A stretch of DNA of 64,000 bases from a bacterium (lineage in GTDB: Bacteria; Patescibacteriota; Saccharimonadia; Saccharimonadales; UBA4665). The DNA lies in the NCBI GenBank assembly GCA_021800155.1, contig JAJYZG010000003.1, positions 1 to 64,000 on the forward strand, read 5' to 3'. The notes beneath the pieces are model-generated. The model was not told where the DNA came from, made no database searches, and worked only from the letters and a program-made list of their open reading frames with translations. A program made the position numbers and the translations under genes. Position 1 is the first letter of the stretch; every line of letters starts with the position of its first letter. This document shows positions 19,255 through 20,545 of the stretch, piece by piece.

Positions 19255-19440
19255 TCATACCCCAAAGTGTCTTCCGGCTTTATAGCCGACGTAAACACCG
19301 ACAAAAGCGCCGATAGTTCCCAATACAATGCTCCACCCACCGAGCCAATTACCATGGTCCATTAGTTGGCCGATCCATCCTCCGAGGGTGCTTATTACTA
19401 GAATTGATACTGTTATAAAAATTTTCATTTTGTCTAGCAA
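19255..19440 (-). CDS. Small Gly-rich two-TM membrane protein
   Basis: MKIFITVSILVISTLGGWIGQLM...GGWSIVLGTIGAFVGVYVGYKAGRHFGV. Confidence 0.6.
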   Translation of the reverse strand: MLDKMKIFITVSILVISTLGGWIGQLMDHGNWLGGWSIVLGTIGAFVGVYVGYKAGRHFGV

Positions 19441-19505
19441 CTTAATTTTAACACGACCTAGATATAAACATCAATTTGGCAAAATTATAAAAGTATGAAA
19501 AAGTA

Positions 19506-19534
19506 TTGACATAGTAACACTAATTTGATAGAAT
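19506..19534 (+). promoter_or_regulatory. Near-consensus promoter (extended -10) for an unannotated RNA
   Basis: TTGACA 19506-19511, 17-nt spacer, TAGAAT 19529-19534 preceded by TGa. Confidence 0.85.
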
Positions 19535-19540
19535 CGCAAT

Positions 19541-19898
19541 TTGTGAGTTTGAATTATCAGGCTCATTGTACCTTTACCCATTCTAACAATGTTAGATTGC
19601 TTTAGAGCGCAGACAGCAATTATAAGTAGTTGTTACCCTCCACTACCAGTTGTCCTATAAAGCAGTTAAATTTAACTGCTTTGTTCTAAAGCAAACTAAT
19701 CCCTTTAAGTATTCCCCCGATCAAGTGTGAGTCTAAATGATTTTACGGTTTTCTCCGTAAAGACACATGCCTTAAATAATTAAGTTTGCATGCTGTTTCG
19801 CGCGGGTGGGCTTGAAGGGTTTACGGGGGCAACTTCGGTTGCCCCTAGAAACAGACTGACGAGCGGTGCCCACCCCCTCTCGTCGGTCTGTTTTTATT
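19541..19898 (+). ncRNA. Putative structured ncRNA (~358 nt), family not recognised
   Basis: Strong promoter, no ORF support, several stable helices, GGGGCAAC-UUCG-GUUGCCCC, terminal intrinsic terminator. Confidence 0.75.
19851..19895 (+). terminator. Intrinsic terminator of the ncRNA, loop capable of pseudoknotting
   Basis: ACAGACTGACGAG 19851-19863 / CTCGTCGGTCTGT 19879-19891 (13 bp, one G-U) then T run. Confidence 0.85.
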
Positions 19899-19903
19899 AT
19901 GGC

Positions 19904-20545
19904 TTAAACAATAAAACGTCTGGTTTCGTTCGGCAGGTTCTTGCTATATATAAATTCGCTAAGTATGGCAGCGCATTCGCGTTTTAGATTGTCCATTTGT
20001 TTATTTTGTTCGGCGCTGAAGTGTCCGAGCACGTAGTCGGCACTGTCGATCTCAGGCGGTTCTTTGGGGCCTATGCCAATCCTGACTTTGCCGTAATTCG
20101 TGCCAATGCGGGAGTCAATTGACTTGATTCCGTTATGCCCTGCATCACTGCCGTCGACTCGTGTACGGATTGAACCGAAATCAATGTCAAGATCATCATG
20201 GATCACGACTAGATGTTCAAGCTGGACTTTGTAGTAGTTGACGCTCAGTGCCACCGCTTCGCCGCTTAAGTTCATGTAGGTTAGCGGCTTAATACAAATT
20301 ACCTGGTTTTCGCCTAAACGCCCTTGAGAGAGTTGACACTTTAAATCTTTTTTTTCACTCCAGTTTCCTAATTCATTGAAACGGTCAACAATATAATCGA
20401 GTACGGCAAAGCCAATGTTATGTCTGGTTGAGTCATATTTTTTGCCGGGGTTGCCTAAGCCGACCAGTAATACTATGTTATTCTGACCAGTGGTGTAGTA
20501 ATTTATAGGCAGAGCGACTTGCGGTCGTTTCTGGAGCCAGCCCAT
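19904..20545 (-). CDS. pth: Peptidyl-tRNA hydrolase
   Basis: LLVGLGNPGKKYDSTRHNIGF, KPLTYMNLSGEAV, VIHDDLDI, AGHNGIKSI. Confidence 0.95.
   Translation of the reverse strand: MGWLQKRPQVALPINYYTTGQNNIVLLVGLGNPGKKYDSTRHNIGFAVLDYIVDRFNELGNWSEKKDLKCQLSQGRLGENQVICIKPLTYMNLSGEAVALSVNYYKVQLEHLVVIHDDLDIDFGSIRTRVDGSDAGHNGIKSIDSRIGTNYGKVRIGIGPKEPPEIDSADYVLGHFSAEQNKQMDNLKRECAAILSEFIYSKNLPNETRRFIV

Follow-up and report, generated by a model that had tools for sequence, protein, structure and literature searches.

Comparison of homologs showed that the window, i.e., the whole 64,000-nucleotide stretch of DNA analyzed here, carries a single-copy, independently organized gene of the class Saccharimonadia for a predicted structured non-coding RNA of about 355 nt, and that the same fixed loop as in the terminal hairpin of this RNA is found on free-standing, covarying hairpins predicted in dozens of phage contigs. 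It is nearly certain that the RNA family is real, and we consider it very probable, as far as sequence data can tell, that the phage hairpins are genuine structures with a relationship to the RNA. Our best explanation joins the RNA family and the phage hairpins with a host factor that binds the loop; we give this full reading a probability of roughly 0.45, with neither the factor nor the function shown.

Saccharibacteria (TM7) are ultrasmall parasitic bacteria living on other bacteria, and little is known of their regulation. A near-universal structured RNA that is absent from RNA libraries is hence a missing basic part of Saccharibacteria biology. That phages have reused its terminal hairpin gives a strong natural clue to its function and makes the search for a binding partner direct, and the hairpin offers a simple marker by which Saccharibacteria phages can be recognized in metagenomes. 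Moreover, the RNA is genetically tractable, since natural-transformation mutants have been published for cultured Saccharibacteria (PMC10633639).

Organization and predicted fold of the RNA gene

The promoter of the RNA gene was located where the preliminary description had placed it, with TTGACA at 19506, a 17-bp spacer and TAGAAT ending at 19534, matching the consensus at 11 of 12 positions (Table 1). By itself such a match is within chance in this AT-rich region (three found compared to 2.6 expected), and the significance of the promoter therefore comes from its conservation: TTGAC, a spacer of 16/17 bp, TAnnnT and the TG of the extended -10 element were kept in all 150 homologs that had enough upstream sequence to be counted, the spacer being 17 bp in 143 of them. 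In the homologs, the median length of the RNA to the T tract was 358 nt. The full homolog set comprised 156 distinct sequences. The fold had a stability z-score of -8.3, and none of 100 shuffled sequences was equally stable. In the absence of expression data, transcription of the RNA can only be inferred from the conserved promoter and terminator, and a housekeeping role is plausible for a near-universal RNA that is present in one copy per genome and mostly in a fixed place, but has not been shown.

The longest ORF in the homologs had a median length of 39.5 aa compared to 44 aa in shuffled sequences, and the homologs contained neither a conserved ORF nor a coding potential above that of shuffled sequences. 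A coding sequence could thus be ruled out, in line with the earlier remark that the region has no convincing ORF.

In the usual gene order, topA is followed by a small conserved ORF, the RNA and pth, with the RNA convergent with pth. Adjacency to pth is conserved as far as the sister order, as would be expected if the RNA acted in cis on topA or pth, either as a leader or as an antisense RNA. However, both of these neighbors lie on the opposite strand, indicating that the RNA is not a leader, and the RNA has its own terminator before pth. In addition, unrelated genes lie between the RNA and pth in several genomes, and for many copies in family f26 pth was not found inside the fetched flank. 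Strand, terminator and inserted genes all argue against regulation of pth or topA in cis, and we regard this explanation as largely refuted by the place and strand of the RNA alone.

Two observations concern the surroundings of the gene. The ORF beside topA (61 aa; window 19255-19440, minus strand) is conserved in position across the order. The interval between the RNA and pth is variable, with differing small or medium ORFs inserted in L018, L019, L023, L024, L026, L041, and L042.

Table 1. Predicted features of the RNA gene, in positions of the window.
Feature	Position	Strand	Remark
sigma-70-type promoter TTGACA-N17-TAGAAT, extended -10 (TG)	19506..19534	+	layout kept in 150/150 homologs
ncRNA gene	19541..19898	+	start inferred ~7 nt past -10, end at T tract; ~355 nt; start and end without transcript data
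P1, 5'-terminal hairpin	19543..19566	+	148 of 148 homologs have 5 bp or more
Conserved C-rich unpaired segment	19570..19579	+	ACCUU-(A/U)-ACCCCC in relatives
Possible hairpin P2, UCUAAC with GUUAG	19582..19595	+	tentative; clear covariation absent
P3, 5' strand, GUUAG + UUGCUUUAGAGC	19591..19608	+	covariation
P4 hairpin	19626..19646	+	loop ACCCUCC at 19635-19641
P5, variable hairpin within P3	19659..19682	+	sequence, fold
P3, 3' strand, GUUCUAAAGCAA + CUAAU	19683..19700	+	covariation
Long-range helix, 5' strand CCCUUUAAG	19701..19709	+	covaries with 3' strand
P6 hairpin, middle domain	19742..19761	+	sequence, fold
P7 stem, middle domain	19766..19792	+	sequence, fold
GGGUGGGC, complementary to terminator loop (candidate pseudoknot)	19804..19811	+	nearly invariant
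Long-range helix, 3' strand CUUGAAGGG	19811..19819	+	covaries with 5' strand
P8 hairpin GGGGCAAC-UUCG-GUUGCCCC	19825..19845	+	absent from several families
3'-terminal hairpin and intrinsic terminator	19850..19895	+	stem freely compensated, loop fixed
Fixed loop CGGUGCCCACCCCCU of terminator hairpin	19864..19878	+	recurs on free-standing phage hairpins

The helices that the preliminary description had listed (19597-19608/19683-19694, 19659-19682, 19742-19761, 19766-19792, and 19825-19845) are all present with the quoted sequences and coordinates, and its assignment of the RNA to the plus strand and of an intrinsic terminator to its end proved right. Beyond these, the present analysis adds P1, the extension GUUAG/CUAAU of P3, the long-range pairing of CCCUUUAAG with CUUGAAGGG, the complementarity of GGGUGGGC to GCCCACCC, the conservation of the ACCCUCC loop and the occurrence of terminator-hairpin copies in phages.

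Over the class, compensatory changes were found in 13 of the 16 pairs of P3, with a covariation of 0.672 compared to 0.30 for shuffled columns and at most 0.115 when a strand was slid. On a tree built from the RNA without P3, 110 double compensatory events were counted for this helix, as opposed to 3-14 in the slid controls. In the sister order the outer part of the helix, GUUAG/CUAAC, is replaced by CUAAU/AUUAG, thus supporting the outer pairing. The segment GUUAG (19591-19595) has two candidate partners, UCUAAC upstream (19582-19587) and CUAAU downstream (19696-19700), and this choice would allow the RNA to refold while transcription proceeds. For the upstream pairing, P2, shuffled sequences paired almost as often as real ones.

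The predicted long-range helix was likewise shown to covary and would close the 3' domain; variants in homologs were CCCUUUAAC/GUUGAAGGG, GCCUUUAAC/GUUGAAGGC, CCCUCUAAC/GUUAGAGGG, CCCUUGAUUAU/AUAAUCGAGGG, CCCUACAAC/GUUGCAGGG, and CCCUUUAAUC/GAUUAAAGGG. In the terminator stem, 9 of 13 pairs had compensatory changes while the loop remained fixed, being CGGUGCCCACCCCCU in the window and GAUGCCCACCCUU in another family.

Distribution and comparison with known RNAs

A BLAST-type search of the window's own genome and its relatives identified the RNA in 49 of 61 genomes, mostly in the same place, and together with the covariation of P3 and the conserved promoter this withstands the test by conservation and covariation in relatives that the preliminary description had proposed. 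A pattern scan found at least 119 loci in named genomes. Among the listed matches with a lineage in the title, all were assigned to Saccharibacteria, Saccharimonadia/Saccharimonas, TM7 or Patescibacteria, including TM7 oral taxon 350, Microsaccharimonas and the complete genome CP011211, except for one contig labeled Chloroflexi. The copy on this 9.8-kb contig (L087, SEAL01000024.1) is of the typical Saccharibacteria type, which probably reflects misbinning.

Of 380 genomes from the phylum, 24 were matched by a covariance model for the 5' domain, all of them within the window's order, and 25 by a third model (R3), built on P3 only and with the sister order included in its training, all of them within the class; neither of these phylum-wide searches found the RNA in any of the 343 genomes belonging to other classes of Patescibacteria. 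Within the class, the model of the 3' domain had matches in 193 of 295 genomes. Nearly all of the listed non-matches within the order were in diverged genera of family f26, and the fetched examples of two such genera, g46 and g52, do carry the RNA. In the sister order, family f28 has a shorter version, with pth adjacent in two of three genomes. In three further families of the class no credible match was found.

When the whole window was searched by cmscan at gathering scores, none of the 4227 families of Rfam 15 matched, and at E ≤ 10 the region 19480-19920 gave nothing but a microRNA match on the opposite strand that can be put down to chance. The Rfam check proposed in the preliminary description thus returned no family, and its suggestion of an unannotated, possibly lineage-specific structured RNA that is not RNase P RNA, tmRNA or SRP RNA agrees both with this result and with the restriction of the RNA to one class. 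RNase P RNA and tmRNA, although of similar length, could be ruled out for the locus as both are located elsewhere in the genome: RNase P RNA (RF00010) gave a full-length match of 249 bits on another contig, and tmRNA (RF00023) was found on contig C49, while ARAGORN detected no tmRNA in the window.

For SRP RNA the models RF00169 and RF01854 matched neither the locus nor any other part of the genome, the small SRP model found nothing in 41 genomes (the own genome and 40 relatives), and the SRP helix-8 motif was not seen in the RNA. The SRP RNA of this lineage would appear to be either very diverged or replaced. The 6S model (RF00013) also had no match at the locus at E ≤ 10 or in the rest of the genome. 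Since neither SRP RNA nor 6S RNA was recognized by a model anywhere, it cannot be excluded that the RNA is an unrecognized replacement. Nevertheless, it is highly improbable that the RNA is a strongly diverged relative of 6S RNA binding to RNA polymerase. It is true that no other 6S candidate is known from an Rfam match in the genome and that the RNA, like 6S RNA, has its own promoter, of a strong constitutive type, and would be expected to be an abundant regulator. On the other hand, its architecture is not the single long bulged hairpin of 6S RNA; the missing model match also speaks against this identity, though the model misses most control genomes, detecting 6S RNA in only 5 of 14.

Several large structured RNAs of bacteria, such as raiA, OLE, ROOL, and GOLLD, are of unknown or only partly known function. 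The RNA resembles them in being long, highly structured and restricted to a lineage, but differs in having no Rfam match and other hosts, and in that its terminal hairpin is also free-standing in phages. With sponges of the CsrB/RsmZ type it would share, by inference, a hairpin loop recognized by an mRNA-binding protein. However, the RNA has a single copy of its motif instead of many, a loop without GGA and a more elaborate fold, and with one fixed-loop hairpin per RNA the CsrB-type criterion of many repeated protein-binding hairpins is not met. Small RNAs of the RsaE/FsrA type similarly expose a C-rich loop complementary to GGAGG, but the RNA is far larger and more structured, and no homology to them was found.

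The open-access literature on non-coding RNAs, phages and hairpins of Saccharibacteria/Patescibacteria, not including supplementary lists and subscription papers, contained no prior description, and an earlier unnamed prediction of the RNA in supplementary lists is possible. As neither the RNA family nor phages bearing the terminal hairpin of a host non-coding RNA match a known system, we judge both the RNA family and this use of its hairpin by phages to be new. A weaker reading of the novelty would be that of a new family of large structured RNAs with unknown function.

Terminal hairpins in phage contigs

Scanning viral contigs for the f26 type of the 3' loop identified 28 contigs, none of which contained the rest of the RNA and 26-27 of which had the loop on a stem of its own. 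Wider scans found 53 contigs with the f26-type loop and 64 with the window's type, so that both main host loop types occur among the phage hairpins. Stems of at least 6 bp were predicted for 79 of 117 non-redundant viral loop matches, compared to 0.33% for random 13/15-nt loops in the same contigs; the redundant count is 84 of 122, in which contig G664 appears three times (L206, L297, and L298), its complete RNA copy included. A reversed loop was never found on a stem (0 of 34), and neither was the loop type of the sister order in viral contigs (0 of 120). The stems also covaried, with values of 0.729 compared to 0.211 after shuffling for 42 distinct f26-type matches that were not selected for stems, and of 1.278 compared to 0.225 for 36 window-type matches chosen for having stems. 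Nearly all of the 193 host genomes had a single match to the 3' domain, indicating that the free-standing hairpin is a phage trait.

At the left end of contig G664 (IMGVR_UViG_3300049064_000004) lies a gene for a tyrosine integrase (PF00589), and at the right end lies the complete RNA copy; the contig also has a RecT-like gene, identified by a weak Pfam match, with a mimic hairpin 185 nt upstream of it. Perfect 71-bp direct repeats are located at C1:1-71 and at ~37.4 kb (L387, L389), the latter directly before the RNA, and the end of the repeat coincides with the -35 box of the RNA. G664 is best read as an integrated Saccharibacterium phage whose putative att site abuts the RNA promoter, making the promoter region of the RNA a phage integration site. 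It is the only hairpin phage tied directly to a Saccharibacterium, the others being linked through the loop and their G+C content, which was 47% for contigs with hairpins compared to 62% for those with stemless matches.

Integration of this provirus beside the RNA could point to a role at the DNA level, with the phage hairpins serving, for example, in attachment or packaging and the RNA gene being no more than a place of integration. However, the hairpin is not part of the 71-bp att repeat, which is located upstream of the RNA and extends as far as its -35 box. Moreover, the strand of the phage hairpins follows the genes, being that of the neighboring gene in ratios of 54:18 downstream and 59:16 upstream, and the phage stems differ freely in sequence yet remain complementary, which fits an RNA structure and not a recombinase core. 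A DNA-level role thus seems very unlikely.

Possible role of the terminal hairpin

The predicted terminal hairpin is suggestive of a docking site for a still unknown host factor, since a trans-acting factor that reads the loop best accounts for its staying fixed while the stem drifts, in the host RNA as well as in unrelated transcripts from phages. According to this explanation, the RNA would be stable and act in trans, and the factor, inferred to be most likely an RNA-binding protein, would recognize its 3' hairpin loop. Phage transcripts with the same hairpin, often near head genes and oriented like the genes, would draw the factor onto their own (late) mRNA; alternatively, the phage hairpins would titrate it away from the host RNA. 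We put forward this mechanistic layer, i.e., a host factor that reads the hairpin and is recruited or titrated by phage transcripts, only tentatively as there are no binding data, and neither a transcript nor a protein partner nor a phenotype has been observed. Phages may also favor the hairpin merely as a good terminator, but a T tract was present behind only 23% of the hairpins (19 of 84, compared to 2.5% in the background).

Another possibility is that the loop is read by RNA pairing instead of by a protein. In the RNA itself, GGGUGGGC is complementary to GCCCACCC in the terminator loop, which is consistent with a pseudoknot that remains untested, as both segments are so nearly invariant that covariation cannot test the pairing. 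If the loop pairs with GGGUGGG in the host RNA, the phage loops might pair with that strand in trans and either disable the RNA or be regulated by it. GGGUGGG and CCCACCC are indeed almost invariant and perfectly complementary, and within the window GGGUGGGC and its complement were found only at the RNA. In RNase P RNA and tmRNA no G-rich complement of the loops was found other than GGGGUA in RNase P RNA. Besides the lack of any possible covariation test, this explanation is weakened by divergent homologs, namely L221 of the sister order and the genera g46 and g52, which have kept the C-rich loop although their G-rich strand is missing or displaced. Because such homologs retain the loop without its complementary strand, an RNA-binding protein is favored and pairing as the reader of the loop appears unlikely.

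A different part of the RNA could act on translation. The P4 loop contains CCUCC, which is complementary to the Shine-Dalgarno core GGAGG and is a typical anti-Shine-Dalgarno core, the 16S rRNA tail of this lineage itself being unchecked. The CCUCC core is found throughout the class including the sister order and is kept in most divergent homologs, with ACCUCC in two genera, although a few homologs (L263 and L268) lack it. A translation regulator of this kind would pair with Shine-Dalgarno sequences and dampen phage or a few host mRNAs, with the phage hairpins as decoys. Shine-Dalgarno motifs are rare in host genes and about five times more common in the hairpin phages: AGGAG precedes the start of 4.1% of 630 host ORFs (L088-L205 and the window) compared to 20.8% of 683 ORFs of hairpin phages, and GGAGG precedes 1.3% and 10.2%, respectively. 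An anti-Shine-Dalgarno-like P4 loop would thus strike phage above host mRNAs. However, frequent Shine-Dalgarno motifs may be a general habit of phages, and the phage hairpins mimic the terminator loop and not the complement of the P4 loop. With the anti-Shine-Dalgarno sequence of the lineage unverified, we find a translation regulator doubtful. Combining both parts of the RNA, one could envisage a host-phage conflict in which the anti-Shine-Dalgarno loop of the RNA is directed against phage mRNAs rich in Shine-Dalgarno motifs and the terminal hairpin is bound by a dedicated host factor, with the phages using mimics of the hairpin and integration at the promoter; at present this composite reading is rather improbable.

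The phage hairpins in the IMG/VR contigs L269-L386 (e.g., L282, L307, L329, L349, and L372) were mostly intergenic and located near head genes. According to PHROGs, their neighbors were genes for head protease/capsid, scaffold, portal, major head, and terminase proteins, and an extended -10 element was found near 16 of 84 hairpins compared to 3% in the background. In a group of eight phages, the hairpin was located ~40 nt before a gene for an acidic product of ~270 aa without a PHROG match.
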